The notes under the pieces were generated by a model. The model had not been told where the DNA came from, did no database searches, and saw only the letters and a program-made list of their open reading frames with translations. From positions 1 to 59,501 of IMG/VR virus record IMGVR_UViG_3300025767_000017: a DNA stretch of 59,501 nt; one strand, 5' to 3'. How positions within the stretch are numbered: the stretch's first letter is position 1; every line of letters begins with the position of its first letter. The position numbers were made by a program, and so were the translations under genes. Positions 23,497 through 58,064 of the stretch are shown piece after piece. Source of the DNA: a virus.

Positions 23497-23504
23497 TATT
23501 TATT
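23497..23504 (-). promoter_or_regulatory. Late promoter box AATAAATA
   Basis: Complement of TATTTATT, 18 bp before the ATG at 23479, overlapping the last codons of the 5624-aa gene. It matches the NATAAATA late box and would start a fibre-module transcript separate from the baseplate genes. Confidence 0.6.
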
Positions 23505-29500: not shown

Positions 29501-32500
29501 TCGGTATCAGCTAGTTGGTTCCACTGACTTGGTAAATAATCACTTTCTACCCATTCATAAATATCAATTGATGCGCCAGGTAACAGCGTGTTCCATTCGT
29601 TACGTTGGAATGTAGTCGAACCTTGGTAGGCATAATTAAATCTAGCATTACTAATATTCCACCAAATTTGTCCAACGTGGGATTGGTTCCAATGTTTTGC
29701 AGGATCTACTGTTTCGTCGCTTAACAATCCTACATTATAAGAAGCCGGATCGTATGGTGTTTTAAAAGTAATTTCTTGATCTGCTACTCCAGCAATTTTA
29801 CCTTGTACTGCGTCAATATAATCTATATATGAAACAATTTGATTAGTACGCTTGTTATATAAGAATACTCCTTTAATTTTAGATATATCGACCGGAGTTA
29901 TACTGCTCCTTAGTATATTCCAAGATTTCTTATTTTTAGTTTTACGATAATCTAAAACTGCACCTCTATAGTCACCACTAATAAAATTAGGTATTCCTGT
30001 ATAGATGTGATTATTATTAATTAACAAGTTTCTACCAAAGTCAGTTTGAGTATCTTTGAATATCAATTGTTCCGAATATACTAAACTATCTTGTACATTT
30101 TCATAAACATATATTGTTCCTTTATCAACTTTAATATTTTTAAAAGAAGTAAAGTTATTATCAAATGTAGTTTCGAGTCTTTCCTCTGATGTAGTGTCTA
30201 ATACGTATGCTCGGTCTGCTAATGTATTAGAATAAGTGTCAAACCTTGTTGGAATAAGTTGGTCGCCATTTTGACTTGATATTAATAAATTTTCGTTGCC
30301 AAATGCAATCGAATATCCAAATCTTTCAACTGCTTCGTTATTTGGAGAATTAATTACAGTATTTGGAATAGTTACCGTAACACCGTTAATGTCAACACCG
30401 TTGATTGTTCCAAATTTTTCTGTCGCGGTATCATAACTATAAATCCACACTGCACCTTGATCTACACTTAAGGCATCATCTAAAGGAACGCTTACTGCTA
30501 TTTTTGTACCTGCTGGATTTATAGACACAGAATCTGCCCACAAGTTTTTGTTTATCCAAACATCAGATGTGCCTGCATTATTATCGTGATCTTGAAGTTC
30601 AAAACTAGATGCAGGTGCATTAATGATTTGATCTAATACATATTTTTTATCATTGAGTCTATAAATTGCTAATTGCTTTTGATAAGAACTATCTGATAAT
30701 TCTAATTTAGTTGTTACCACTAACACTTGTGCATCATCGCTAATATCAAACTTTTCAGCAAACTGAGATATATTTGTTTCAGGGTCATATACTGATTCGC
30801 TATAATAAGCATTTAACGTTAAGTTTGGTAATAGCCCTAAATAATCAATTTTACTATCAACGGTTTCCCATGAAGTATTTGATGCAGTCGGTACACCTTC
30901 TGCCTTAGGCACATTTGTAGTTGCCTTCCAAAAATTAGTATTATAATAAACAATGTCATTTAATTTATAACTAATAGAAGTATCAAATGTTCCTCTATAG
31001 TTTTCGTCCTTTGCTCGTTTCCAACTAATTTTATTCCAATATATGGAATCAGTGATATTATCTTGTGTTACGGTAGACGACTTACGTGCAATATAAAAGT
31101 CATCGCGCCAAACTACAACATCATTAACATTATAAGCAGAATCAAATTGGTACAACCCTTTAAACGTTTGTGAGTTGTCAACACCGTGTTTATATATTTC
31201 GATAGAACCTGGATTTTGTCTCCATTCTAGTGCTTCATCTCTTGCTGCGCCCGTAGGTTCGTTTGATATCATCAATGTATAATCATTGCCAGTTTGTGTT
31301 ATCTTAACTTGTGTACCAAATCGTTTATCCTTAGCTGCGTATTCAGATACCAAAGTTATTTGATATTGATATACTCCATTTGCATCTTTTCTGTAAATTG
31401 AAACAGCACCTTGATTTAATGGTCCTAGTGACCCAGTTTTGTCTGCTGGAATATTATATACCTGTGTGTAATCTTTGTTTAGACTAAACGGAGGATTTGC
31501 AGCTCTAGCAACACCGGTGATAATATCTTCATTAAAGAAATAATATTCTTGATCAGTTACAGGTAGTATATTATCCCACGTAGTTGTTGCTGGGAAGTTT
31601 CTTTCTGCGTCAATAACTAATAGTTTACCAATAAGAGAGCTTCCTAAAACAATATCATTATTAACATCAGATATTCTTCCAGTACTTTGATCAGGGTCAC
31701 TTCCGCTTCTTGATAGACGTTTAATATTAAATCTACCAATATTAGTCAGTTGCTGGAATCTGCCGCCTACTGTTAAATCTGTTCTATTAGTTTTTTGTTC
31801 AAATTCTGCTTGAGTTAAAACATTAACATAAACTCTTACCGCATTAAAGTTGCGCTGATACAGCATTACTTCAGCAGCACTTGTTGTTGTAGAATTTCTA
31901 GCTAGGCCGCCTTGTCCATCTCTAGGAATCTGCACATCAACAAGTATATCACCTACTTCAGGTTCAAATACGTTGCCTTGGAAGTCAAATTCAGTAAAGT
32001 CGAAATCAATATAGCCGTCCCACATGTCTTGTATAACAGCATCAGTACGTGTAATGTCGCTAACTATAAAACCAGATTGAGCTAAATTAAAATTCTCGTT
32101 GTCAAAATATTTAATATTAATTAGTGTTGGATTTTCTGACAGTGGTCCGTTGGCAATAAATCTAGGATAGATAATGTCTGAATATATTTTTGAAGTTCGT
32201 ATAACAAATTTAGTGCTATTTTTAGAACTTTCGATTCCGCCGTTGTCACCAAAGTACGCTAAGTGATTTATAAAACTTGCCTGATTGTTTCTATTAACAT
32301 ACGGTCCAACACTAGTTATTGTATCTTGTATATTACTGTAAACATTTAACGGTTGTTCTGCAATTATATCTGCTAGTTTGCGAACATCTGCATATACTAA
32401 TCCTCGGCCTACATCGTAATAGCGACTGTTATTTGAATATGTAAATCCGTTATTTGAAGAAACTTCTGTAGTTTGAGGTGTAGGATCTTCTCCAATCTGG

Positions 32501-35500
32501 TATGTCTTAAATAGCCAATATCCTGCAACAGCATCACTAGTATTATATGTATTTTCTTCAGAATAAAAGCCTACAAAATTATCTTCAGAATTAAATAATT
32601 CGCCTATAATACCAAATATACCATTAGTGTTTATTAAGTATAAAACAGCACTATCTCTATATGTTGACACATAATACACTTCAGCTGAGCCTGTGTCTGT
32701 TTGTACAATATCTCCTTTGGTAGGTAATGTTACAAATGCTTCAATAAAGAAAATATGATCTATTTTTTGTTGTATAATATGTTCTTTTGACAGTACGCTG
32801 GTAGTTATTTCAGGGATCTGGTTATCAAACGGTAGATATATATCTGTTGTAGGATATGAAAAACTGCGTCTGTTCCAATATAAATTAATTCTGTCGCCAG
32901 CGCTGCTCGCTCCATTAACTTGCGATGTGCCGTTAGTGCCGGTATACATATCTTTAGGAGCTCTTACTAAGAAATGGTCTACAACATTATTAGGTAATCC
33001 AGGATCGCCTGAAACTAGTAATGTTAACGAAGTAGAATCAGCATCTGATTGTTCAGAAATATTAATGTAAGAATCAAAACTCGTAAACGGTTGAGCTTCA
33101 ATTTCTGGAAGTATTTCTCTATTCGCTTTCCATAAGCTTTCTTTATATTTTACAATTGCTCCTTTATTATACGTTACTGTACTATCGAAGTCTCCTGTAA
33201 ATTTAGTTTTTACATTACTTGCACCAGGAATACCAATTACTAAATATTCGCCATCCGGAGACACATCAATACTTTTACCAAATTCACTATTAGTAGGATC
33301 GTATAATGTAATTGGAGAAGCAATTGCAGTCCAATGTGTTGCAATTTCTTCATCGTCGAATTGATCGCCGCTAACATGTGAAGCTATTGCAGTGTAATAC
33401 GTTCTAGAACTATCTAGGTCATAAACTACTTTATCCCCTTTAAAGAAAGTAGTGTTAGATTTCCACGGCAATACTCGATCAGGTGACAGTATTTCTTGGT
33501 CAATCTTTAATTCGCTAGATTCGTTAGTTCTTCTATAATAATCAACCTTTCCGTTGTTGTCAGTTGATGACGATATGAACAAGTTTCTATTATCACTAGT
33601 AACTGCCATACTCTCTGAAAAGTTTTGGCGATCACTTAAAAATGCTGTATTATTAATAATAGTTTGATTTCGACTGTAGACTTTTGAATTTTCAATCACT
33701 GCCCAATCGTTATTATATTGTTCAATCCAGAAACGCTGTCCGTCATATAACTTATTCTGTGCAAGTGTATTTGCTTCTTCAAGTGTAGTTGTACGAACAG
33801 AACGTAGTTTAGTTAACAAGAACTTTTGATTTAAGAAACTAGTAGGTGTTATATCTGTAGAAATTCTAATCTTTATTTTATCGAGATTAACGCTATCAAC
33901 AACATAAAGTCCTTCTAGATCAAATTCAGTTGCAGCTCGAACACCTATAATATCTAACGGTTGTACTAGACTGCTTGCCCATCTATTCAATGTTAGTTCT
34001 ACTAATGGGTCTCCAGACACAATAGATGTTTCGTTGTTATTATCTAACGCAAGAACATCTGTTTCAAGACTAACATGCTGATATACATTCCAAGGATTTT
34101 CTTGTACTTCGGTGACCCATATGTAATCTCCAAGGCCTAACAAGTTAACATTACCTAATGGTAATTCAGCCGTAGTGCCAGCTACAAAAGTAACATCTTC
34201 TTCTCTTACGAACCCGCCAGTTTTGATTACTTCCCGACTTAGCGGCGTTGTTGGAAACGGAGCATGAGTGTAATCTAACGGTTTATCGTATGCTTCATGC
34301 GCTAAAATTCTGTAATGCTTGTCAAAGTTTGTTAATGGTAAGCTAGTAACTAATTCAATTGCTTGAGGCGACTCTTGCATTTTATCTTGTTTTAAGTTAT
34401 ATTCTACTTGTGCAATATCATCAATAGCACCGTATCGACCAACTTGCAATGCCCATTCTTCGTAAAATTCTAACGAGTCTTGCCCTGCGCTACTCAATGC
34501 TGTGAACATTTTTGACAGAGCATTTTTTGTGCCTTTGTCTTGAATGAATCCTTGATAAAATTTATATTGTGACACATCATCAGGAATGATGTTAGCAAGA
34601 TACTGACGTTTTTGGAAACCAGTAAAATGTTTTGCCATCTTTTGCAATTCAGGATCAAACCCTTGCGCATCTAAGCTATAAAAATCTGTAAATTGATTAG
34701 TTCTATAATCAAAGTTTGTAATCAATTCGGGCTCTGGTTTTTCGCTAAGTCTAAACCAACTATTAGTGTTAAAGGTAGCAGCGCCTGGGACGTTCTCAAT
34801 TGCTACATAATAAAACTGTTTGTATTTTACAAGACTTCCAATACCGTAGTCTTTCCATATTGCCCAGTCTGTTACTTTGGCGTCATCGTAAATAAATCCA
34901 GGAATATTCAAACTACCGTTCCAGTTTGCTGCTCGGTATCCGCTGATTTTTATTCTTTCTTGTCTATAACCTGTTCTAGGCTGAAAAATAATATCATTAA
35001 AGACTGTTGTATTATCAATTAATATAACATGTTCTTTTTGGACTAATGGCAAAACAACACTGTATAATCCGTCTTCAGTGTCTACAGTTTCTATGCCAAA
35101 ACTATTTTTATTTCTTAATAAACTGTTAAACTCGCTTGTTAACGGTTGTCCGTTTGCTTGTAAGATGCTGTAATTATAAAATGCATCATTAATGTCGTCA
35201 ACAACATAATAGTCTTTAGTAAAATTAAACTTGTTAGCTGCCGGCGATATAGTTATAACTGTTCCAGATGCCCACCCTTGTGTGGTCCAGAATAAAAATT
35301 CTCTTGCACTTTGGTCCCAGTTATTAACAGATCCGTCTAATTCCACATAATTAAAATCAAAGCCTAAATCATTTAATCTAGCACCGTAACCTAATAAGAA
35401 ATCAACTACTTCTTGTGAAGTTTTAAGAGTTGTTCCGTATGGTAGCGATAATGCCGTAGCTGTATCAAAATTGCGTTTAAATAGTGCAGTCTTTCCTCCA

Positions 35501-38500
35501 ACGATAGGAAGGTCTGGAAGTTTTGCAAGATTATCAGTACTAAAAGCATCACCCGAAGTAAAAGTTTTTATAACTCTATAATAAGAATTATTATTTTCTA
35601 CAATAACATCTTGTGGGAAAACTGTTCGCGCTCTCCATTCTGATGTTACTTCGCTTATTCCGCCTACAGTTATTGGAACTGCTTTAGCTCCAGTGATAGG
35701 TGCGTAGTAATCAAAGAAAGGAACTTGGTTATTATAACCTCTTATAATAAATCCGTTTGCTGACTTTTCAACAACTACTCCACTATATACTGCAACAGAC
35801 TGAGGCGAACTAGTGTTAAGGAATAATTGATAATTTTCTTGAGGGACATAAATGCCGCCTTCTTCTAACTGCTGTTGAGGGCTACGACTATCAAGTATCA
35901 AGTTTATTTTTTGTTTGTCACTAAATCCGCCTAACTTAATGCCTAACTGATTAGTGATCGATTTTACATTAGTTTGATAATCTTGATATACTGTTAAAAC
36001 ATCACTAGCTACTAAGTTGTAAATATAATTTACAAGGCCAGCAGTGTTTATTCTTGTAGTATCGTTGTATGTATTAGGAAATATTAAATCACTAAGTACA
36101 ATATTCTTACCTGTAGTAGAATATATTTTTTGTCCTACTAAGTTAGTAATTGCTCGTGACAAGTCAAATGCTTCTCCAATTGTGCTCGAAGGCTTATTTA
36201 AGACCAAACTGTTAATAATAGCAAATGGATAGTCAGAACTTCTACGCCATGCTGTTTCAACAGGTGCTTCATCACCAAATTTAAAATTGCCAGTTGACTG
36301 TCTTAGAATAAATTGGCGTACATATCCACTTTCTTGTGGATGCTTTAATTTGCCTAATGAATCTACTGGAATAAATCCTAATAATCCCGGTCTAGCATAA
36401 TCTAAGTCATATCTAATATTGCCAGGTTCTGCAATTTTGCCTTCTTGTATATCTGTCCAAAGAATTAAATTGTCTCTAGTGTATGGAGCAGTACCGTACA
36501 CTTCGTTCCACCAAGACGGTTTAATTTTAAAACCTTGCATTTCCCACGGATGACTGTGAGGTCTGTCAGTGTCAAATGCACGTTTGTATAACCCTCTCCA
36601 AAATCCTGGATTGGTTTGTCCTTGAGCATTTGTCGCAGATGAATAGTTAAATGTAAACGGATTTAATCTATCGTAAAAATAGTTGTCAGTATAATCATTG
36701 TCTACATATGCTAACCATTGTGTAAAGTTAGACAATAAACTTCTATCTACTTCTGTTTTTGTAAATTCGTTTGTTCTAAAGTCGCCGCCGACAAATTTAT
36801 CAACATTAATAGTATTAGCATTGTAGTCAACTTTTATATTGTTAAAGATTCTTTTTTCAAAATCTAATAACAATTCGTCTCTAAAGTCTAAGTATGCTCT
36901 AATGTAACTTCCGTCGTGTCCTTTAATAAATGGAATTCCAACAGGATATGCATCATATTCTACGTTGTCTGAAACACCATACGAACTGTCAGTTGTAGGC
37001 ATGTAAAGAACTCTGTTCAGTCCAATGAACAAACTAGTATGTGACGTTCCTGAACCACCATTTGCTAAATCAGCAGCGTTTGCAGCAGCAGGCGTTGTAT
37101 ATATCGGATAGAACCATCCTCTAGTTCCTGCCTTAGTAAATCCGTTTTCTATTTCCCCGTAAATTTTATAAGGACCAGTAGTAGATGGTTCGGCCGTTTG
37201 GTAAGTGTCATCTATTGTTAACTCGGGCGTAAACTTAGGGTACATACCTAATTTGGTAGGTGTTGGTGCAATGTATGTTCCGTCAGTACTTAGATATTCA
37301 TATATTTCAATAATATCATCAACTTCTTGTCCAGCATCTATTAGTACATATCCGTCTGGATCAAACGTGTAATCTAACCCGTGTACCAATTGACGTGAAT
37401 TTAAGTAAACATTAACTGATTTAGCACTTAAAGTAGACAGCGTAAACGGTGTAGTTAATGCATAACTTGTAATTCTGCTATCTAAAACAGTATATGTTAT
37501 TGTATTCGAAGGACCATGCGAAATCATATCGGAAAAATAAAACGGCTGTGTTTTAATTTTATCTTTATTAATTTCTTGAATTATTTTATCAACATGTTGT
37601 TTGGTTTCACCGTCAAATCCTAAAGATTCAGCAGTTTCTAAAAATACTCTTTTAAATTTAGAATATTCATTTCCTGCAAAAGTTAGAGCTTTTATTAGAT
37701 TGTATTCTTTGTTTAATAAATGATACAATGAAAGATTTAACGGACTTGCATGTTTTACAAATCTTTTGCCGAATTTATCTAAATCACCAAGGTCTCTTAA
37801 ATTACTAGTTCCAGGAAATACACCTCTAAACTCAGTAAGTTCTCCAACCATACTATCAACATGGTCAATAACTTCTCCTAGAGTAAATTCTGTTATGTCA
37901 TCGTTTAAAGGATTTCGCTCTAAATTAATAGGCAATTCATAGTAACCATTATTATTTTTATTTGCAGAACTATATGCTTTAATAGTGACAACATCGTCAA
38001 TTAAGAGATCGTTATAAAATCTTACCAATGCTGTTTCATTTATTCTATCAAGTTCGTAATCAGTTAAACGAAATTTTAATTTACTATTAACGTATACAAT
38101 AACTTTTAAATCATTTAAGCTACCTGCATTATTAAAAACATCAATCTCAAAATTATTATTTAAAATGTTTGTTGCAGTATATTGTTTAACTACATACTGC
38201 TTACTCTGAGTAGGAGTGCTTGACCAACCGTTTACATAATCAAACGTTGTTCTATTTTTATACTTTCTTAAATTTGCAGTATCAGTTTTAACAGTAATAA
38301 CTGTATCTACATTTTGTACACTAACCGTGTCATTTAATAAATTAAATTCAAATAAAATGTCTCCGCTGTTTTCTAACTTTCTGTAAGATAACGGAAATCC
38401 TAATTCAACATCATTAGTTGTGTCGCCTTCTTTATAGGAAAATATCTTTGTGCCTCTAAATGTACTAGAATTAAATACATTTAAATCACCATAAGAGTTG

Positions 38501-40374
38501 CCTAGAGGGCAGCATAAATCAAATAGCGGCGGTTGATTAGTTTTTGTTTTTTCTTGAGCAAGGAGCCAAGTATTTTCGTGATAATGGAAAGTTTGGCCTC
38601 CATACTTGTTGCCTTGTGTAACAAAAACAGTCTCTAAGTCTAAAGGCATTGTATCAGAAGTTTCTATTAAACTAATCTGACGAGTATTGTTTATTGTAAC
38701 AAATTTAACTTGATAAATTTTTCCATTAACACGAATGTCAGTGTCGGCTACAAATGCGATTCTCATGCCTTCTGCTAAATCAACACCATCGATATTATAC
38801 CCTAGTTGTCCTTCGATAGTAGAAAAGACATCTTTTGTAAAGGTATCTATTAGATCAATATCAGTTTTTGCTTCAACACCAAAATTATATAATTTTAGTC
38901 CTGCTTCAAATTCAATAATAGGACGCTTGGCTCTAAATGTTTCGTCAATATTAACTGCTAATCCGTTGTATTCATAGCTTTTGATTAAAACATCTTTATG
39001 GAACCATTTATTATAACGACTCCAAGCATTTTTGTCTAAACTTGCACGATTGATTACTAGATAATCTTTGTCAACAGCGTATGCACTCGCATTTGCAAAA
39101 GGCAAATTATCAAAATTTTCTGAATCAAAAGGAACTAGTACGTCTTGGCTATACGCAGCAGGAATGATTAAATCTCGTTCATTTATTAAAACAATCTTAG
39201 ATCCAACGCCTTCGACGTACCACTGATCACGTGCATAAATTGCAGGAGAAACATCGCCTTGGAATGTTATCTTCATTCCGTTTGTTAATTCAACACCATT
39301 TGCACTAGTGTAATATTTTTTTCCTAAAATTTCATCAGTAACATTAAGAACTGTATTTTCTTCAATATCATAAATGCGTATAACTCCGCTTGTATCAATT
39401 GAGTTTTTGCTAATGTAAAATAGACGATTAGGTGCATTTAATGGAATAGTGAATTCAATTATACCTTTTTCGATATAGGCAACTGCAACACTTTCGCCTT
39501 CCTCACCTAGTTTAATAATGCCGTCAGGGTATAGTGTCGAAACATTAGTGTCAGCTTCAAATGATACACTACCGCTAGAAGGAAGAACTATAAATTCTCC
39601 TACATCATACAACGAATCGTTGCTATCATACAGTGTAGTATCAAATAATCCGTCAGTTCTTAGGCCTTCTGAACCAGCAGTAATAATGGAAACGCCAGGA
39701 GTAAAACTTCTACTAATTGCAATCGCCATAGGATGTCCAGGAGTATTGATTTCAAATCGATACTTCTGTCCTCTATAAAGTTTTAAATTAGGATTGCGTG
39801 TTAATCCATCATTGAACACATATGCTAGATTGTCGCCTTGATCTTCTAGTGTTACTGTATATGTACTAGTTACTTCTTTACTTTGACCTCTAACAGCAAC
39901 ACTTAAAGGGCCGTTTGGTGCCCAGTAGTATTCACGAAAGTTTGTAAACTTATCCCAATCAATATTTGGATTCCAAGAATAATATTCACTACTATTCAGT
40001 CTACTTTGATTAGTTGTATTCGCACCAAGAAAACTTAACATACCAATGTAATCATTATAATCTTTATAAAATGTTACATTGTCTAGACCATCTTTAATTA
40101 CAGTTGCAGGTTCTAACTGATAGCTTTCTCTATTTGACGAAACGTCACCGATATAGTTATCTGTTGTCTTGTAAGACTTTGCTGTTTTACGACCAACAAA
40201 TCCATTAAGTTTTTCAGCTTCTCCGGGCTGGATCATTTGATCCATAGTTGCTTGCAAAAACTTCCTATTAGCTTCTGTACGAAAGAATTTAGGGATTAAA
40301 TCACTTGCAGATCTATTATTGTTTGCGCCAGGAACTGGCAAAGAATTTTCGTTTTGATTGTTATTATTTGCCAT
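23500..40374 (-). CDS. 5624-residue baseplate/tail structural protein
   Basis: One uninterrupted 16.9-kb gene, starting in the 1-nt TAATG overlap with the gp6 stop, with GGAGG upstream. The N-terminus (IPKFFRTEANRKFLQATMDQM) leads to Tyr/Trp-rich segments. Several ~45-aa units resemble carbohydrate-binding W/Y modules (about 2290-2420: YNKGAIVKYKESLWKA; 3070-3170: NVNDVVVWRDDFYIA and KLNDIVYYNTNFWKA). Units with FGKSIDVSPDGEYLVIGIPG (2358-2385), and related ones near 3020, 3340 and 3445, look like FG-GAP/beta-propeller blades. Glycine units GxGYxxxPxxxFEGxGxGAT recur near 3870-3910 and 4240-4290. Neighbours (gp6, gp25) place it at the baseplate. The sugar-binding-like units suggest surface contact. 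Such very large proteins occur in marine T4-like phages; the exact role is unknown. Confidence 0.8.
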   Translation of the reverse strand: MANNNNQNENSLPVPGANNNRSASDLIPKFFRTEANRKFLQATMDQMIQPGEAEKLNGFVGRKTAKSYKTTDNYIGDVSSNRESYQLEPATVIKDGLDNVTFYKDYNDYIGMLSFLGANTTNQSRLNSSEYYSWNPNIDWDKFTNFREYYWAPNGPLSVAVRGQSKEVTSTYTVTLEDQGDNLAYVFNDGLTRNPNLKLYRGQKYRFEINTPGHPMAIAISRSFTPGVSIITAGSEGLRTDGLFDTTLYDSNDSLYDVGEFIVLPSSGSVSFEADTNVSTLYPDGIIKLGEEGESVAVAYIEKGIIEFTIPLNAPNRLFYISKNSIDTSGVIRIYDIEENTVLNVTDEILGKKYYTSANGVELTNGMKITFQGDVSPAIYARDQWYVEGVGSKIVLINERDLIIPAAYSQDVLVPFDSENFDNLPFANASAYAVDKDYLVINRASLDKNAWSRYNKWFHKDVLIKSYEYNGLAVNIDETFRAKRPIIEFEAGLKLYNFGVEAKTDIDLIDTFTKDVFSTIEGQLGYNIDGVDLAEGMRIAFVADTDIRVNGKIYQVKFVTINNTRQISLIETSDTMPLDLETVFVTQGNKYGGQTFHYHENTWLLAQEKTKTNQPPLFDLCCPLGNSYGDLNVFNSSTFRGTKIFSYKEGDTTNDVELGFPLSYRKLENSGDILFEFNLLNDTVSVQNVDTVITVKTDTANLRKYKNRTTFDYVNGWSSTPTQSKQYVVKQYTATNILNNNFEIDVFNNAGSLNDLKVIVYVNSKLKFRLTDYELDRINETALVRFYNDLLIDDVVTIKAYSSANKNNNGYYELPINLERNPLNDDITEFTLGEVIDHVDSMVGELTEFRGVFPGTSNLRDLGDLDKFGKRFVKHASPLNLSLYHLLNKEYNLIKALTFAGNEYSKFKRVFLETAESLGFDGETKQHVDKIIQEINKDKIKTQPFYFSDMISHGPSNTITYTVLDSRITSYALTTPFTLSTLSAKSVNVYLNSRQLVHGLDYTFDPDGYVLIDAGQEVDDIIEIYEYLSTDGTYIAPTPTKLGMYPKFTPELTIDDTYQTAEPSTTGPYKIYGEIENGFTKAGTRGWFYPIYTTPAAANAADLANGGSGTSHTSLFIGLNRVLYMPTTDSSYGVSDNVEYDAYPVGIPFIKGHDGSYIRAYLDFRDELLLDFEKRIFNNIKVDYNANTINVDKFVGGDFRTNEFTKTEVDRSLLSNFTQWLAYVDNDYTDNYFYDRLNPFTFNYSSATNAQGQTNPGFWRGLYKRAFDTDRPHSHPWEMQGFKIKPSWWNEVYGTAPYTRDNLILWTDIQEGKIAEPGNIRYDLDYARPGLLGFIPVDSLGKLKHPQESGYVRQFILRQSTGNFKFGDEAPVETAWRRSSDYPFAIINSLVLNKPSSTIGEAFDLSRAITNLVGQKIYSTTGKNIVLSDLIFPNTYNDTTRINTAGLVNYIYNLVASDVLTVYQDYQTNVKSITNQLGIKLGGFSDKQKINLILDSRSPQQQLEEGGIYVPQENYQLFLNTSSPQSVAVYSGVVVEKSANGFIIRGYNNQVPFFDYYAPITGAKAVPITVGGISEVTSEWRARTVFPQDVIVENNNSYYRVIKTFTSGDAFSTDNLAKLPDLPIVGGKTALFKRNFDTATALSLPYGTTLKTSQEVVDFLLGYGARLNDLGFDFNYVELDGSVNNWDQSAREFLFWTTQGWASGTVITISPAANKFNFTKDYYVVDDINDAFYNYSILQANGQPLTSEFNSLLRNKNSFGIETVDTEDGLYSVVLPLVQKEHVILIDNTTVFNDIIFQPRTGYRQERIKISGYRAANWNGSLNIPGFIYDDAKVTDWAIWKDYGIGSLVKYKQFYYVAIENVPGAATFNTNSWFRLSEKPEPELITNFDYRTNQFTDFYSLDAQGFDPELQKMAKHFTGFQKRQYLANIIPDDVSQYKFYQGFIQDKGTKNALSKMFTALSSAGQDSLEFYEEWALQVGRYGAIDDIAQVEYNLKQDKMQESPQAIELVTSLPLTNFDKHYRILAHEAYDKPLDYTHAPFPTTPLSREVIKTGGFVREEDVTFVAGTTAELPLGNVNLLGLGDYIWVTEVQENPWNVYQHVSLETDVLALDNNNETSIVSGDPLVELTLNRWASSLVQPLDIIGVRAATEFDLEGLYVVDSVNLDKIKIRISTDITPTSFLNQKFLLTKLRSVRTTTLEEANTLAQNKLYDGQRFWIEQYNNDWAVIENSKVYSRNQTIINNTAFLSDRQNFSESMAVTSDNRNLFISSSTDNNGKVDYYRRTNESSELKIDQEILSPDRVLPWKSNTTFFKGDKVVYDLDSSRTYYTAIASHVSGDQFDDEEIATHWTAIASPITLYDPTNSEFGKSIDVSPDGEYLVIGIPGASNVKTKFTGDFDSTVTYNKGAIVKYKESLWKANREILPEIEAQPFTSFDSYINISEQSDADSTSLTLLVSGDPGLPNNVVDHFLVRAPKDMYTGTNGTSQVNGASSAGDRINLYWNRRSFSYPTTDIYLPFDNQIPEITTSVLSKEHIIQQKIDHIFFIEAFVTLPTKGDIVQTDTGSAEVYYVSTYRDSAVLYLINTNGIFGIIGELFNSEDNFVGFYSEENTYNTSDAVAGYWLFKTYQIGEDPTPQTTEVSSNNGFTYSNNSRYYDVGRGLVYADVRKLADIIAEQPLNVYSNIQDTITSVGPYVNRNNQASFINHLAYFGDNGGIESSKNSTKFVIRTSKIYSDIIYPRFIANGPLSENPTLINIKYFDNENFNLAQSGFIVSDITRTDAVIQDMWDGYIDFDFTEFDFQGNVFEPEVGDILVDVQIPRDGQGGLARNSTTTSAAEVMLYQRNFNAVRVYVNVLTQAEFEQKTNRTDLTVGGRFQQLTNIGRFNIKRLSRSGSDPDQSTGRISDVNNDIVLGSSLIGKLLVIDAERNFPATTTWDNILPVTDQEYYFFNEDIITGVARAANPPFSLNKDYTQVYNIPADKTGSLGPLNQGAVSIYRKDANGVYQYQITLVSEYAAKDKRFGTQVKITQTGNDYTLMISNEPTGAARDEALEWRQNPGSIEIYKHGVDNSQTFKGLYQFDSAYNVNDVVVWRDDFYIARKSSTVTQDNITDSIYWNKISWKRAKDENYRGTFDTSISYKLNDIVYYNTNFWKATTNVPKAEGVPTASNTSWETVDSKIDYLGLLPNLTLNAYYSESVYDPETNISQFAEKFDISDDAQVLVVTTKLELSDSSYQKQLAIYRLNDKKYVLDQIINAPASSFELQDHDNNAGTSDVWINKNLWADSVSINPAGTKIAVSVPLDDALSVDQGAVWIYSYDTATEKFGTINGVDINGVTVTIPNTVINSPNNEAVERFGYSIAFGNENLLISSQNGDQLIPTRFDTYSNTLADRAYVLDTTSEERLETTFDNNFTSFKNIKVDKGTIYVYENVQDSLVYSEQLIFKDTQTDFGRNLLINNNHIYTGIPNFISGDYRGAVLDYRKTKNKKSWNILRSSITPVDISKIKGVFLYNKRTNQIVSYIDYIDAVQGKIAGVADQEITFKTPYDPASYNVGLLSDETVDPAKHWNQSHVGQIWWNISNARFNYAYQGSTTFQRNEWNTLLPGASIDIYEWVESDYLPSQWNQLADTDNGVPLGISGTALYGDTKYSAKLSYDDISQTFSTKYYFWVENKLTIPTIENRRLNCVNIKDLIQSPRENGYRYISFIGDNKFVLNNFNNLITSDDLVLNIRYSTGNNDAQNEHKQYQLLSDKLATSKPNFDIERKWFDSLIGFDSNNRIVPDPKIPVAKRQGIQNRPRQGMFVNRVEALKQSVERINLVLSENLIVDEYNISPLLLKEEVPTIAGKEYDIQIDTFEELEFISTNKLTPAILTPVIVNGRVIRVAITNPGRGYKVAPSYQFEGAGTGATLDITINNLGQITNVEVLTQGSDYTEATLLTVRKFTVLVLADSTSFNKWALYEWNTSLNRWFRTSIQDYNVTAYWDYIDWYDAGYNQFTDVDYTVDSSYQLSSINDTIGDIIKINNVGTGGWLLLEKESNQNTEDYTINYKTVGRQNGTIQFKDSLYDYAKNTTGYDNKSYDSVFYDNNPVKELRIILETIRDNIFVTDLEIEYNQLFFASLRYILSEQPNVDWMFKTSFISATHKLGALKQDITFQYNNLEDFESYVREVKPYSTNIREFVDNYENLDNTRSSISDFDLPPYYNTITGKITPSNATIDSNVIVGAEDNTTVYPRKHWSDNLGYQIKEIKLSDSGTGYTFVPTVRFEGGGGTGATAKAVIAYGKVTHILVTNTGNGYTTAPSVIIEGPQNEISTPAAATAILGNGLVRTPHIRVKFDRLSGKYTYETILKQTLHTGTGAETRFNLPYPIDLNNDKVQIFVDGIEQLRSKYTYSNVEDNTSTYTREKGRIIFAKPPSLGAVIEIKYQLPMSMLSAEDRILHSYNPSANMYSRELSQLMSGIDYGGVEVRSFDFQGVSGWDTRGWFSDQWDQFDNTFEDEVFTADGSTIAVQLSAPLEAGAVYNLYKNGVRIDATDFVAGTPAVPGVPAVPGLPADAEYNNGALITENNGTVFDRALTVNGLKLVVAGAVGGQLAVPDEWAKKTARTFELITDPNGAGINTTHQRNFIKTLRGDAGTWHAGIPTIQRVAYNGGSTYTPNWLEDVNVASYAGLQAFNDSVAQKDMVWYKNINGNNPPTQRRDIEEIFEHVFHTVHAFGIPGAVPGSIDAVEMNPDIRINNEPSFDWKNTAIHLAMKEAIDAGLYDPSGYATDWNTDPEKAAVAYTEYTYLVNWSMWDMSVYWDNGTLSPEWDDSLKTPAGMLANNPLGYALFNTYFAPVLSKPDFATIESIFGENDTGVSGYVVDELVGGTPEVAAIPEVPGSSATNVNAITNSITGDGVTDVIYVQDLGIEILEGDLFVVRKITSDGSIIPDETGYDTALSGGDLLYTSATGVNAEDIITDGDGFISAAASAGPEELVPGQIFDTLDIKVYTRESGGQGKIFSQSYRLDTTVTTYELGVIPSSVDSIIVKIDNVILSRENADYTINWKLGTVTIDNTIPSFVDNATLSIVTVAQAGQNILDFGNYIADESTITFETQVRFQADLDIFVSVDGVKQTVTFNESPLTGNVTFTFDTVPTVDSVIYYALFDSNTQINYSQMKKDTFTGNGSTVNFTLSSAPFYNRPTQHNLIVKVGNNILSPGYNVQYTIPANSQREYLLETFQNQPGSLLTEDIKVFLNGTEIFTPTSWRFDIANSSVVLTDDVGIPGDIVELYVITDGEYTLTSPTTVTLTNAPADEATVEIFQFSNHDILGIERINYNVVSRVTLQLENPDYNTYNRLSVGEINLRVPAIDSKYVWVIKNGILLTPDVDYAISDSKNKVQLAVIPDKFDTIDVMHFTAEENVSKFSYRQFKDILNRTHFKRLDASATTLAQPLNYYDLRIEVTDSSLLSEPNKGQNLPGIIFINGERIEYFVKEGNLLRQIRRGTLGTGIKETHAVGSKVFDQNISKTIPYSDSNIVQNFTADGVTALFDVSASTSSINELEVFVAGQRMRKNSINTFIPVFELDSPEGDYENTAEVIFNIETQQIELKVVPVEGSRVTIIKKQGKIWNEGTKSLGKTENAIARFLRAGTSELPE

Positions 40375-53111: not shown

Positions 53112-53957
53112 ATGAGACCCAAGAACTATCTAAACAATAAAGACATACTTAAAGAAATACATAGATCAAAAAACACGTTTAATAGTTACGTAGAACCAAC
53201 ATATGGCGATTATGATATTATCTTACCTAGCGTAGATAAAATTAATCGATTGACAGTTGCAGAAGCGAAACGCAACAAAGCAAAAAAGATGTCTTCGACA
53301 GAATATGATCGAAGAAAATCACTCGGTGAAAAAGTAAAACAAGCAGAGTGCGAAACTCTAGCATCAGAAATTACAAAAGAAGAATTAATCTTCCGTGTTA
53401 TGACTTTTGATCATATTCCAGAAGAACCGGGTCGTAAAAAGAACCCAAAGACCGTAGCAGATACAAAGATTAAACTTCCGTTTCCGCCGTTTCAACATTA
53501 CAAATATAACGAAAACGACGAACTTATTTTAGTTGGTAAAAGTCACTGGGTAGGTGGCATGGACAACGGACATTTTAGCTTAGACCACGGTAAAGCAACT
53601 AATCAACTTGCAATGATGTGGTTAAAACTTGTTGACCGTTACGCAACACGCGGCAACGTTCGTGGTTATACCTATAATGACGAAATGAAAGGTCAAGCAA
53701 TCCTACAACTTGCGCAAATCGGCTTGCAGTTTGACGAATCTAAGTCAGATAATCCGTTTGCATACTATACAGCCGCAGTTACTAACAGTTTTGTACGTGT
53801 TATCAACATTGAAAAGCGTAATCAGAATATTAGAGACGACATTTTAGAAATGAATGACTTAGATCCTAGTTATACGAGACAAAATGCAGGCGAATGGGAA
53901 GCTAGTGTAAAGCGAAATGAAGAAGCAGCACCTACACAGTTCACTGATTCCAAATAA
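53112..53957 (+). CDS. gp55: Late-transcription sigma factor gp55
   Basis: 281 aa against ~185 in T4. The C-terminal part holds the sigma region-2-like core: LAMMWLKLVDRYATRGNVRGYTYNDEM, then QAILQLAQIGLQFDESKSDNPFAYYTAAVTNSFVRVINIEKRNQNIRDD. These residues contact the RNA polymerase clamp and the late -10 box. The first ~140 residues are a basic extension (EAKRNKAKKMSSTEYDRRKSLGEKVKQAE). It includes KLPFPPFQHYKYNENDELILVGKSHWVGG, the usual lead-in in marine T4-like gp55. The product should direct RNA polymerase to NATAAATA boxes, found before most structural units here. Start: ATG 7 nt after AGGAG, behind the consensus sigma-70 promoter. Confidence 0.92.
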   Translation: MRPKNYLNNKDILKEIHRSKNTFNSYVEPTYGDYDIILPSVDKINRLTVAEAKRNKAKKMSSTEYDRRKSLGEKVKQAECETLASEITKEELIFRVMTFDHIPEEPGRKKNPKTVADTKIKLPFPPFQHYKYNENDELILVGKSHWVGGMDNGHFSLDHGKATNQLAMMWLKLVDRYATRGNVRGYTYNDEMKGQAILQLAQIGLQFDESKSDNPFAYYTAAVTNSFVRVINIEKRNQNIRDDILEMNDLDPSYTRQNAGEWEASVKRNEEAAPTQFTDSK

Positions 53958-53961
53958 GAGG

Positions 53962-53990
53962 TTGACAACTGTTAATTTTTGTTATATACT
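53962..53990 (+). promoter_or_regulatory. Sigma-70-type promoter for gp47-gp46
   Basis: TTGACA (53962-53967), 17-bp spacer, TATACT (53985-53990). It starts 4 bp after the gp55 stop. GGAGA follows at 54006-54010 and the TTG start of gp47 at 54018. Confidence 0.85.
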
Positions 53991-54017
53991 TTAACAAGTA
54001 TATATGGAGAACTAATC

Positions 54018-55034
54018 TTGTTTAAAAAAGCTGCGGTATTTACAGATATCCATTTTGGTCTAAAAGGCAATAGTCGTGTTCACAACGAAGATTGCGAAGA
54101 ATTTATTGATTGGTACATTCAAACTGCTAAAGATAACGGTTGCGAGACTGGTATCTTCTGCGGTGACTGGCATCATAATCGTAATTCGCTTAATCTTACC
54201 ACTATGGATGCAACAATCAGAAGCATGGAGAAGCTAGGTGCTGCATTTGAGAAGTTTTACTTCTTTGATGGTAACCACGATTTGTACTATAAAGACAAAC
54301 GTTCTGTTAACAGCACAGCATTTGCAAAGCACATTCCAGGCATTACGTTTGTTGATGAGATTCTTATTGAAGATGACGTTGCACTAGTGCCGTGGCTAGT
54401 TGGAGACGAATGGAAGAAGATGGGCGACATCAAAACAAAGTATTTGTTTGGTCACTTTGAACTTCCTAGCTTTTACATGAACGCATTGGTGCGTATGCCT
54501 GATCATGGCGACTTAAAGCCTGAACATTTTAAACATCAAGACTATGTATTCAGTGGTCACTTCCATAAAAGACAAAAACAAGGTGCTATTCATTACATTG
54601 GTAATGCATTTCCGCACAATTATGCAGATGTAGGCGATGATGATCGAGGTATGATGATACTTGACAAGGAAAACAACAAGGAACCAGAGTTTATTAACTG
54701 GCCTAACTGTCCCAAGTACCGTACTGTTACACTCAGCAACTTGATTGATAATGCAGATACCTTTATTAAGAGTAAAATGTACTTGCGTGTTACACTAGAC
54801 TTGCCTATCAGCTACGAAGAAGCAAGTTTTATCAAAGAAACCTTCATCAATACTTACAATTGCCGTGAAATTACACTAATTCCACAAAAACAGCTAGAAG
54901 AAATGAGTACAGAGCTTGATATTGCACAGTTTGAAAGTGTAGATCAAATTGTAAGCAACGAAATTGCACAACTTGACACCAACAACTATGACAAGAGCAT
55001 GCTGTTGCAGATTTATAATGGATTAGAAGCATAA
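54018..55034 (+). CDS. gp47: Recombination nuclease subunit gp47 (Mre11/SbcD-like)
   Basis: 338 aa from a TTG start with GGAGA 7 nt upstream; T4 gp47 has 339 aa. A longer frame starting at 53979 would begin inside the promoter, so I reject it. Metallophosphoesterase motifs: FTDIHFG (Asp10, His12), GDWHHNR (Asp50), DGNHDLYY, FGHFELPS and FSGHFHKRQ, the metal and phosphate ligands of Mre11 nucleases. With gp46 it makes the exo/endonuclease that resects DNA ends for recombination-dependent replication and degrades host DNA. The stop is one base before the gp46 start, so the two are co-translated in fixed ratio. Confidence 0.94.
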   Translation: MFKKAAVFTDIHFGLKGNSRVHNEDCEEFIDWYIQTAKDNGCETGIFCGDWHHNRNSLNLTTMDATIRSMEKLGAAFEKFYFFDGNHDLYYKDKRSVNSTAFAKHIPGITFVDEILIEDDVALVPWLVGDEWKKMGDIKTKYLFGHFELPSFYMNALVRMPDHGDLKPEHFKHQDYVFSGHFHKRQKQGAIHYIGNAFPHNYADVGDDDRGMMILDKENNKEPEFINWPNCPKYRTVTLSNLIDNADTFIKSKMYLRVTLDLPISYEEASFIKETFINTYNCREITLIPQKQLEEMSTELDIAQFESVDQIVSNEIAQLDTNNYDKSMLLQIYNGLEA

Positions 55035-55035
55035 T

Positions 55036-56805
55036 ATGATTAAGATCAAGGATTTAACTGTCAAAAACTTCATGAGCGTGGGCAATCAAACTCAAGCAGT
55101 AGACTTTGACCATGAACAACTAACACTTGTGCTGGGTGAAAACTTAGATCAAGGCGGAGATGACAGCGGATCACGTAATGGTACTGGTAAAACTACTATC
55201 ATTAACGCACTTAGCTATGCATTGTACGGTCAAGCACTTACAAACATCAAACGCAACAACTTAATCAACAAAACTAACTCAAAAGGTATGTTGGTTACAC
55301 TGCATTTTGAAAAGGATGGCAACGATTATCGCATTGAACGCGGTCGTTCACCTAATATCTTTAAGTTTTATGTAAACGATCAAGAAACTCTTGTAGACGA
55401 ATCGCAAGGCGACAGTAGACAAACACAAGACGACCTAAACACACTGTTGGGTATGAGCCACGATATGTTTAAACACATTGTTGCACTCAATACCTATACT
55501 GAACCGTTTTTGAGCATGCGAGTTAACGATCAACGTGCTATTATTGAGCAACTGTTGGGTATTACTATCCTTTCAGAGAAAGCAGATGCACTCAAAGAGC
55601 AAACTCGTCAGACAAAAGATGCAATTACAGAAGAAACTCTAAAGATCAATGCTATTCAAACAGCAAATGAGAAGATTGAAGCAAGTATTGAGAGTTTAAA
55701 GCGCACTCAACGTGCTTGGCAGGCTAAACACAAGCAAGATCAAGACAAACTAGCAAGTGCTATTGAAGAATTAGAGAAATTAGACATTGAAGCAGAACTT
55801 GAAGCACACGAAAAGCTAGCCAATTGGACAGAACACAACAATGCTATTACGGCTCTTAGAAAAGAACTAAGCACACTAGAGCCTGCACTGACTCGTGCAG
55901 ACAAAGCTGTTGAAAAAGTTGTCAAAGACATTGCAGAACTTGAGGATGCAACCTGCTACACATGTGGTCAGGCGTTACATGCAGATAAAAAAGCAGAAAT
56001 TGCAACTCGTAAAGACAAAGAACTACTTGACGCAACTACATACCAACAAGAGATTGCAGGTAAGGTAGTTGAAGTAATGAAAGCACTTGAAGGGATCGGT
56101 GATATCAACGGCAAGCCTACTACTTTTTATGAAAATGCTAAAGAAGCATATGAACATAGAAGTAATGTAGACAATTTAAAGCAGACTTTGGCTAATAAGG
56201 AACAAGATGACGACCCTTATGCTGTACAAATTGATGAATTGAATGAAACTGCTATACAAAAAGTCGACTGGAACGTTGTAAACGAGCTTACCAGCTATAA
56301 AGAGCATCAAGAGTTCTTGCTGAAGCTGTTAACAAACAAAGATAGTTTCATTCGCAAGAAGATCATTGATCAAAACTTAGCTTACCTAAACAACAGACTT
56401 ACATATTATCTTGACAAGATTGGATTGCCGCATCAAGTTGTGTTCCAAAACGATTTGAATGTTGAAATTACACAGCTAGGTCAGGATCTAGACTTTGATA
56501 ACTTATCACGTGGCGAACGCAACAGACTTATCTTAGGTTTGAGCTTTGCATTCCGTGATGTTTGGGAAAGTCTATATCAAAACATTAACTTGTTGTTCAT
56601 CGACGAGCTTATTGACAGCGGCATGGACACAGCAGGCGTTGAAAACTCACTGGGCATCCTTAAAAAGATGGCACGTGACCGTAATAAAAACATTTACCTT
56701 ATCTCACACAAAGATGAACTCATTGGACGAGTCAATCATGTGTTACGAGTTGTAAAAGAAAATGGATTTACTAGCTACGCCAACGATTTGGAGGTAGTAG
56801 AGTGA
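55036..56805 (+). CDS. gp46: Recombination nuclease ATPase subunit gp46 (Rad50/SbcC-like)
   Basis: 589 aa (T4 gp46: 560 aa). Walker A GSRNGTGKTT (46-54 region), a coiled-coil arm from ~170 (DALKEQTRQTKDAITEETLKI), a zinc hook CYTCGQ (Cys307, Cys310) at its tip, and a second arm. The ABC signature follows (LSRGERNRLILGL near 489), then Walker B with catalytic Glu (LLFIDE near 520) and a HKDE switch region. It is the ATP-driven partner of gp47. The zinc-hook CxxC permits dimer bridging. The frame ends in a 4-nt overlap with the next gene. Base and codon use match the neighbours. Confidence 0.95.
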   Translation: MIKIKDLTVKNFMSVGNQTQAVDFDHEQLTLVLGENLDQGGDDSGSRNGTGKTTIINALSYALYGQALTNIKRNNLINKTNSKGMLVTLHFEKDGNDYRIERGRSPNIFKFYVNDQETLVDESQGDSRQTQDDLNTLLGMSHDMFKHIVALNTYTEPFLSMRVNDQRAIIEQLLGITILSEKADALKEQTRQTKDAITEETLKINAIQTANEKIEASIESLKRTQRAWQAKHKQDQDKLASAIEELEKLDIEAELEAHEKLANWTEHNNAITALRKELSTLEPALTRADKAVEKVVKDIAELEDATCYTCGQALHADKKAEIATRKDKELLDATTYQQEIAGKVVEVMKALEGIGDINGKPTTFYENAKEAYEHRSNVDNLKQTLANKEQDDDPYAVQIDELNETAIQKVDWNVVNELTSYKEHQEFLLKLLTNKDSFIRKKIIDQNLAYLNNRLTYYLDKIGLPHQVVFQNDLNVEITQLGQDLDFDNLSRGERNRLILGLSFAFRDVWESLYQNINLLFIDELIDSGMDTAGVENSLGILKKMARDRNKNIYLISHKDELIGRVNHVLRVVKENGFTSYANDLEVVE

Positions 56806-57033: not shown

Positions 57034-57483
57034 ATGCAGTGGACTTACCAAGGACAAACAATTGACACAATACCAGAAGAGTATGAAGGCTTTGTTTATC
57101 TTATCACCAATACCACTACAGGCCAGAAATACATAGGCAAGAAACTAGCAAGATTTAAAACTACTAAGCCACCACTCAAAGGCAAGAAGAATAAGAGACG
57201 CGGTACTAAAGAAAGCGATTGGAGAGACTACTGGGGTTCCAGTGATAGACTCAATGCAGACGTAGCCGCACTAGGCGAAGATAAGTTTACAAGAGAAATA
57301 TTATACCTATGTAAAGGTAGGGGCGAAATGTCCTACATAGAGGCAAGAGAACAATTTGACCGCAGGGTACTTGAAACTGATGAATACTACAACGGTATTA
57401 TCAATGTTAGAGTTGGCGGATCAGACAAACTCAAACAGGCATTGCTAGAACACTCCATCAAGGCAAAACAATCCAACACCTAA
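57034..57483 (+). CDS. GIY-YIG-like endonuclease
   Basis: 149 aa. The motif GFVYLITNTTTGQKYIGKK (about 19-37) is a GIY-YIG variant: VYL and YIG are separated as in the family, and a basic loop follows (KGKKNKRRGTKE). DWRDYWGSSDRL and an Arg-rich helix (FTREILYLCKGRGEMSYIEAREQF) supply the expected Arg and Glu: Glu in YIEAREQF is the likely metal ligand. Proteins like this occur in many T4-like phages, where they may cut competing DNA or be free-standing homing enzymes. The Shine-Dalgarno is weak. The stop is immediately followed by the structured noncoding region. Confidence 0.75.
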   Translation: MQWTYQGQTIDTIPEEYEGFVYLITNTTTGQKYIGKKLARFKTTKPPLKGKKNKRRGTKESDWRDYWGSSDRLNADVAALGEDKFTREILYLCKGRGEMSYIEAREQFDRRVLETDEYYNGIINVRVGGSDKLKQALLEHSIKAKQSNT

Positions 57484-58015
57484 GGTTAGCGGGCCAGTTT
57501 GCAAATACCGCTGTGGAAAAGGTCCCCTGAGAAGGACACACGTAACATATTGATCAACGCACCGGAGTGCGGAAGCCATCAGACAAATTGGGCTCACTGG
57601 TTGATATAGGTTGATTGTTGGCAATCGAAAAGCACATATGTTCATAAAAACTTCTTAGCAACAGGAACGAAGCGGAAGGTAAGAATATAGTGTACAAGCT
57701 ATAAATTTGTTTTATAGTTTATGTACTATATTCTGATGTCGACGTAGGTTGGGAAAGGTCAGAGCCCATTGAACTGTGTAATACAAATACCTATTTCCAA
57801 TGTCTATGGCTGGATAAGACTCACATGAAGTTATATCTTTTTAGACGACGGGGCCGTAACAGGTTCCGTCTGACTGAAACGATCTACATGAAATTAATAC
57901 AATATCACTTCGTAATATTGCTTGTTCATATATAAATCATTTAATTAAAACGAAGTGTAAGTAGTTTGAGCGTTAGCGAAAACTTGTATGAGCTTGCTCA
58001 TACATTAGTTGTTTA
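57484..58015 (+). ncRNA. Candidate structured non-coding RNA of unknown class
   Basis: About 530 nt without a plausible gene and visibly richer in G and C than the rest. It carries many perfect hairpins: AGCGG/CCGCT (57488-57512); CGCAC-CGGA-GTGCG (57558-57571); GATTG-TTGG-CAATC (57613-57626); a three-part helix GAATATAG..TACA..CTATAA at 57683-57733; a 9-bp stem with GU pairs, GACGGGGCC-GTAACA-GGTTCCGTC (57847-57870); the long-range pair CACTTCGT (57906-57913)/ACGAAGTG (57950-57957); and a final hairpin (57985-58004). Purine-rich unpaired stretches (GGAAAAGG, GCGGAAGG, GGGAAAGG) separate them. I found no T-arm of a tRNA, no tmRNA or RNase P core and no group I intron R/S pairing. Orientation is assumed from the flanking rightward genes. 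Confidence 0.6.
57985..58012 (+). terminator. Hairpin, possible intrinsic terminator
   Basis: TGTATGAG-CTTG-CTCATACA (57985-58004) is a perfect 8-bp stem with a 4-nt loop followed by TTAGTTGT. It sits at the end of the noncoding region and just before the late promoter, where early transcripts from gp47 would be expected to stop. The T-run is interrupted, so it may instead be part of the RNA above. Confidence 0.45.
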
Positions 58016-58026
58016 AGTAAGTTTGA

Positions 58027-58034
58027 AATAAATA
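58027..58034 (+). promoter_or_regulatory. Late promoter box AATAAATA
   Basis: 31 bp before the ATG at 58065, with AAGGAA at 58051-58056 as ribosome binding site. The only rightward late box placed properly before a gene in the window. Confidence 0.65.
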
Positions 58035-58064
58035 TATAATAATTGATATTAAGGAATAATCACA

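Follow-up and report, generated by a model that had tools for sequence, protein, structure and literature searches.

Comparison among relatives indicates that the roughly half kilobase following a SegE-like endonuclease gene in the window (the whole stretch of DNA analyzed here, a 59.5-kb virus record of 59,501 nucleotides) is a stand-alone gene for a large non-coding RNA of phages, one that constitutes its own family. The predicted RNA comprises a compact pseudoknotted core (P5, P7, P8, P10, PK1 and PK2), interchangeable 5' domains and a 3' hairpin stack and, judging from the same comparison, has a fixed location in one phage clade, whereas more distant phages carry it in other surroundings. 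That the stretch is a structured RNA gene we regard as practically certain. Structure and family are demonstrated by the comparison, whereas function is inferred: in the absence of expression data, we assign a probability of about 60% to the overall reading of a trans-acting structured RNA.

The RNA and Its Gene Neighborhood

On the + strand, the window carries, in order, genes for a gp55-like late sigma factor, gp47, gp46, a 68-aa ORF and SegE (GIY-YIG), followed by the RNA, its terminal hairpin and a late promoter (Table 1); the operon genes from the late sigma to SegE lie head to tail. The initial annotation had pointed to half a kilobase without coding capacity, and this gap is real: the 581 nt that separate the SegE stop (57483) from the next start (58065) contain no gene, and no reading frame is conserved, the 153-nt core being open, among the matches listed, in at most 13 of 120 sequences for any frame. 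The RNA had been delimited at 57484-58015; we place its end slightly short of this, at the terminal hairpin (~58003), and its 5' edge may lie ~10 nt earlier, as a conserved AACACnTAAGG leader seen in relatives overlaps the segE stop. The proposed difference in base composition is weak, positions 57484-57892 having 41.8% GC against a window mean of 36.6 ± 5.2 and 39-41% in the flanks; only the 3' tail (57893-58064) is unusual, at 24% GC.

Genes downstream of the RNA are preceded by a late-promoter-like TAAATA element, found 18-95 nt from the end motif in 84 of 116 RNAs (shuffling expectation, 21%). Readthrough from the gp47/gp46 operon, as previously suggested, is plausible, and in some relatives a promoter closely precedes the RNA as well: a sigma70-like TTGACA-17-TATACT lies 65-87 nt upstream in five distinct contigs, all from close relatives. 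Regarding other genes of the window, the SegE/GIY-YIG family is called "NAD synthetase" in PHROGs (phrog_447) and in many GenBank phage records, which looks like a propagated misannotation. A single 5624-aa ORF occupies 23500-40374 on the - strand, amid structural genes, and a radical SAM domain protein, an unusual auxiliary gene, is encoded at 636-2012, also on the - strand.

Table 1. Coordinates of the RNA, its structural elements and neighboring genes in the window.
Feature	Position	Strand	Basis or remark
gp55-like late-transcription sigma factor, first gene of upstream operon	53112-53957	+	phrog_12791, E 9e-75
gp47-like nuclease subunit	53979-55034	+	ORF list and position directly upstream of gp46 only
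gp46-like recombination endonuclease subunit	55036-56805	+	tblastn to many phage recombination endonuclease subunits; IMG/VR relatives
SegE-like GIY-YIG endonuclease gene, immediately 5' of RNA	57034-57483	+	Pfam PF19835 SegE_GIY-YIG, E 3e-35
Structured RNA, ~520 nt	57484-58003	+	Homologs at same place in >100 phage contigs; covariation
Helix P1	57488-57492 with 57508-57512	+	99.5% paired; GC to AU double change
Helices P2/P2b	57513-57515 with 57539-57541; 57522-57527 with 57533-57537	+	
Helix P3	57547-57553 with 57601-57607	+	28, 28 and 23 double-changed cells in three pairs
Hairpin P3a, inside P3	57559-57561 with 57568-57570	+	Covarying
Hairpin P4	57609-57613 with 57622-57626	+	98.5% paired; double changes in 5/5 pairs
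Pseudoknot PK1, 5' strand	57640-57643	+	Partner 57771-57774
Hairpin P5, around conserved AGGAACGAAGC motif	57651-57678	+	Double changes in 3/5 pairs
P6, peripheral hairpin	57680-57738	+	Variable length; 57682-57685 with 57731-57734 covary
Pseudoknot PK2, 5' strand (GAC)	57741-57743	+	Partner GUC 57758-57760
Core helix P7	57744-57749 with 57789-57794	+	99% paired
Core hairpin P8	57750-57753 with 57765-57768	+	
Pseudoknot PK2, 3' strand (GUC), in P8 loop	57758-57760	+	Partner GAC 57741-57743
Pseudoknot PK1, 3' strand	57771-57774	+	Partner 57640-57643
Direct repeat copy 1, ACATGAA, after ACTC	57823-57829	+	Possibly in hairpin loop
Hairpin P10	57847-57855 with 57862-57870	+	98.8% paired; changes mostly GC/GU, one-sided
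Direct repeat copy 2, ACATGAA, after ATCT	57886-57892	+	
AT-rich hairpin	57900-57920	+	Pairing kept while stem sequence changes; two-set covariation, two pairs
Conserved GTTTGAGCGnnAGCGAAAAC hairpin near 3' end	57964-57983	+	In 60/60 class-A sequences, at most 4 edits
Terminal hairpin, taken as RNA 3' end	57986-58003	+	Strongest two-set covariation
Late-promoter-like AATAAATATA, for downstream genes	58027-58036	+	TAAATA

Evidence for a Conserved Fold

Compensatory base changes among relatives support a common fold, as would be expected of a structured non-coding RNA. In 81 class-A sequences (the window's type), a 61-pair model is 97.2% paired, with double-sided changes in 27 of its pairs; it collects 423 double-changed cells, as compared to 128 in shuffles and 16-51 in controls with slid partners, which are only 35-41% paired. 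A deeper set (n = 51) gave 93.8% pairing for the core model, and 159 double-changed cells, where slid controls had 12-46. Moreover, a two-set test against a tree-based null, a home-made R-scape-like procedure, supported 24 pairs versus 0-3 with shifted partners, and one-set tests placed PK1 on top. When multiple testing is fully corrected for, the number of passing pairs falls to 4-9, including a few non-canonical ones. As the structures were partly derived from the same alignments, the slid controls are somewhat flattering, so that the size of the difference from the controls and the diversity of pair types carry the case for the fold. The proof is comparative and not energetic, because folding energies stand out only moderately, with z scores of -2.6 and -3.5 for the + and - strands, respectively, and -2.2 for the conserved stretch of 409 nt. 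Folding energy was dropped as proof, since its signal is insufficient and is larger on the wrong strand, while the single-sequence MFE fold recovers part of the model but neither pseudoknot, and lacks several covarying helices.

Most of the local helices listed in the initial annotation do exist, including the nested hairpin that corresponds to P6 and the 9-bp stem of P10, although the latter contains G-U pairs in the window's sequence. Its suggestion of a new ornate RNA family is likewise borne out: relatives share covarying helices, both pseudoknots are supported, no known class matches and no frame is conserved.

The best covariation in the RNA is that of PK1 (one-set E 5e-5 to 2e-3), with double changes in all four pairs and two non-canonical cells in three pairs over ~129 sequences. 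Its strand combinations include GUAC/GUAC, GUUC/GAAC and ACAC/GUGU, and UGCUAC/GUAGCA and UGCUCC/GGAGCA in other classes. PK2 is 99.3% paired in the deep alignment, shows double changes in 3/3 pairs, and takes the forms GUG/CAC, GCA/UGC, AGU/ACU or GAU/AUC in divergent members. A pairing of GGUCA with UGACU was also considered as the second pseudoknot and is 99% paired, yet it was replaced by GAC with GUC, because in divergent members its 5' strand reads GCACA, GUGCA or GACUA while its 3' strand hardly varies. P8 and the 3' strand of PK1 lie within P7; P7 changes from UA to CG in four divergent sequences and from UA to GC in one, and P8 from UA to AU, GC or CG and from GC to AU. Both helices are nearly invariant in close relatives, and their compensatory changes come mainly from the deep set. 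In P2b, both sides change in 5/5 pairs.

With regard to modules, the 3' core is constant, while the 5' domain occurs in at least three types, namely class A (114 distinct sequences), B (22) and C (4). The 3' end carries a conserved GAGCG hairpin and the terminal hairpin; the stem of the terminal hairpin differs in sequence between relatives and is perfectly paired in nearly all of them; some members lack the terminal module.

Known RNA Families

Searching the window against Rfam 15 returned no match at gathering thresholds, and permissive searches of the locus and of divergent relatives yielded only eukaryotic or chance families, far below gathering scores. Several of the classes that had been named as worth comparing were also confronted directly. 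At E <= 10, the GOLLD covariance model (RF02032) matched nothing close to the RNA in any of four phage records, and cmscan gave no GOLLD match either; the ROOL model gave none at E <= 10, with no positive in control genomes either. No match was obtained at the locus to the group I core (Rfam Intron_gpI), nor to the group II intron model (RF01998), and flanking exons as in a group I intron are missing, as downstream genes differ between relatives. ARAGORN found 0 tRNA and 0 tmRNA genes in the window, and Rfam no tmRNA match. The family is, we are confident, absent from Rfam, and the earlier naming of GOLLD and ROOL as the closest kind holds as an analogy only. No relevant description of the RNA was found in open PMC papers or Rfam, although an unpublished or subscription-only account is not excluded.

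The newness claimed here concerns the RNA class itself, as all known families tested failed; the loose category of large phage RNAs of unknown function is already known. To our knowledge, bacteria and phages have only a small number of large pseudoknotted RNA classes, the majority of them still without an established function.

Distribution among Phages

The RNA is present in well over a hundred phage contigs, mostly marine. Relatives were collected by scanning IMG/VR with gp46, the late gene and SegE, and running the RNA by blastn against those loci, which produced 169 alignments, the majority at the same place behind SegE. With gp46 as an anchor independent of the RNA, both SegE and the RNA were present in 186 loci whose downstream sequence extends for 1500 nt or more, and the three others are contig truncations; these loci include overlapping ones from one contig and are not all independent, the distinct RNA core sequences numbering ~130-146. 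A core-derived pattern retrieved at least 120 stretches in IMG/VR and, from bacterial genomes, only two, both in one Neomarinimicrobiota MAG (L283 and L284; PBPT01000016.1, 335 kb, and PBPT01000082.1, 153 kb). As the representative copy has the usual SegE neighbor, the two contigs probably derive from phages and were placed in the MAG by binning. Among the matches listed for the pattern, SegE lies just upstream of the RNA wherever the sequence is long enough, with an insertion between the two in a few members. Many IMG/VR contigs stop at nearly one point inside the RNA (positions ~139-147, window ~57622-57630; 15 of them within a single 25-nt bin), probably because assembly is interrupted by the conserved RNA, in the same way as by rRNA.

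A second pattern added 42 more divergent loci, with scores for the RNA's own model, R1, down to 82-105 bits, and here the context changes. SegE lies downstream of the RNA in two loci (L288 and L308), another nuclease-like ORF (read by eye) takes its place in two with no SegE near (L299 and L309), and both gp46 and SegE are absent nearby in three (L289, L314 and L316). The divergent copy in L316 (5000-10500) stands amid genes that by eye look bacterial-metabolic (IscU-like, cytochrome-c-like and serine hydroxymethyltransferase-like), either phage auxiliary genes or a sign of a non-phage contig. Genes downstream of the RNA also differ between relatives, some being apparently on the opposite strand, as read from the sequence. 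No copy was detected with R1 in Melnitz or in marine virus AG-345-L05, both of which have SegE homologs, and blastn with four members against annotated phages gave no real matches. Overall, the RNA is common in uncultured aquatic phages, and no copy was found among those records of cultured phages that were searched; with model R1, alignments A2 and A3 and two pseudoknots, it is defined well enough for immediate metatranscriptome searches.

Two Coordinated Direct Repeats and a Possible Mechanism

The two 7-nt direct repeats match each other in 143 of 146 distinct RNAs, though the heptamer itself varies (ACATGAA, ACATAAT, ACATGAT, ACGTGAA, ACATAAA, ACATGAG, GCATGAA, GCATAAA and GTATGAA; in L289 it is ACATCAA, read by eye). 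On a tree built without the repeat columns, 13 changes were joint and identical, three one-sided and one different, whereas random column pairs of similar variability share a mean of 8% of their changes (95th percentile, 40%). Pairing of the copies with each other was rejected, as it is broken in the ACATAAT, ACATAAA and GCATAAA variants. No third strand complementary to both exists inside the RNA, and no conserved trans complement was found in four phage records, where matches were at chance level and their places did not correspond. Co-change with SegE residues gave nothing beyond a long-branch effect, and the same was observed for gp46. One partner shared by both repeats is the simplest reading, although it remains an inference, with no partner found. 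We only tentatively propose a new RNA class whose pseudoknotted scaffold bears two repeats constrained to remain identical as their sequence changes, either because a single co-evolving partner reads both or because one copy is derived from the other; for mutual copying of such repeats, we know of no mechanism described in any known non-coding RNA.

The best-supported mechanism, itself inferred, is that the RNA acts in trans as a scaffold or decoy and offers two identical sites for binding. Its transcription would come from readthrough of the gp55-gp47-gp46-segE operon, with a promoter of its own as the alternative in some relatives, and the terminal hairpin, which precedes the late promoter, would mark the end of the transcript. 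Acting in trans, its core scaffold would show the repeats as two identical short sites to a single partner, either a dimeric protein or one trans RNA, which may thereby be sequestered or organized during infection. The two-site idea is supported by the coordination of the repeats in the absence of a complement inside the RNA; nevertheless, with binding inferred and no partner identified, a two-site platform is possible without being probable. The coordinated repeats do offer a concrete, testable handle on the partner.

Alternative Explanations

An RNA-only assembly, that is, a homo-oligomeric cage or scaffold without proteins as in GOLLD and ROOL, would be compatible with the similar size, phage location, multiple pseudoknots and GOLLD-like combination of constant 3' and variable 5' parts (PMC12286853), and with a near-invariant GUCGAC palindrome in the core. 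However, neither covariance model matches, the intramolecular PK2 partly explains the palindrome, no intermolecular covariation can be separated and the window has no tRNAs, which leaves such an assembly unlikely. We consider it rather improbable that the RNA is instead a cis-acting 3' element that insulates the late genes and gives the gp55-gp47-gp46-segE transcript its stability or its termination: its fixed place at the operon end, the terminal hairpin and the late promoter just downstream would suit this role, but so large a conserved pseudoknotted core far exceeds the needs of a terminator, and the RNA is kept where gp46 or SegE is not upstream. An RNA gene is favored over a cis element because its contexts vary, SegE being downstream or absent in some, and because a promoter precedes it in five relatives; action in trans rather than purely in cis appears reasonably likely. 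In the window's clade SegE invariably precedes the RNA, so that a function in cis, or a joint one, is still possible.

The GIY-YIG nuclease that adjoins the RNA in most members, together with the pseudoknotted core and two short direct repeats, conceivable sites of processing or splicing, brings to mind a ribozyme or intron relic of the SegE homing endonuclease, a group-I-like mobile element. Such an origin is very doubtful, given the lack of a group I or II match, the missing exons, the variable downstream genes and the absence or displacement of SegE in divergent members; moreover, P7 surrounds P8 and the 3' strand of PK1, which differs from the group I topology. Hardly credible, finally, is a replication-related RNA, an R-loop primer or origin transcript like RNA II of ColE1, which is of similar size: recombination genes do adjoin the RNA and its 3' segment is AT-rich, but direct evidence for an origin is lacking, contexts vary, and a primer would not be expected to have such core conservation.

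Comparison with Known Systems

This pseudoknotted phage RNA, proposed to act in trans, recalls several known systems without coinciding with any of them. The two-piece tmRNA of Melnitz (PMC9004378) is also a structured RNA of a marine T4-like phage with a SegE homolog, whereas the window has no tmRNA and model R1 finds nothing in Melnitz. In group I introns with GIY-YIG endonucleases (RF00028), the nuclease gene likewise adjoins a pseudoknotted RNA; the new RNA differs in its topology and in lacking exons and a match at the locus. ROOL (RF03087) shares with it a length of ~500-650 nt, the phage location and multiple pseudoknots, though not the gene context or a model match. As for GOLLD, the new RNA is shorter, lies behind SegE/gp46 instead of with tRNAs and is not matched by the GOLLD model; yet both are large RNAs of phages or prophages with no known function, and the universally conserved 3' region and variable 5' region of GOLLD (PMC12286853) have their counterpart in the constant 3' core and interchangeable 5' domains described here.
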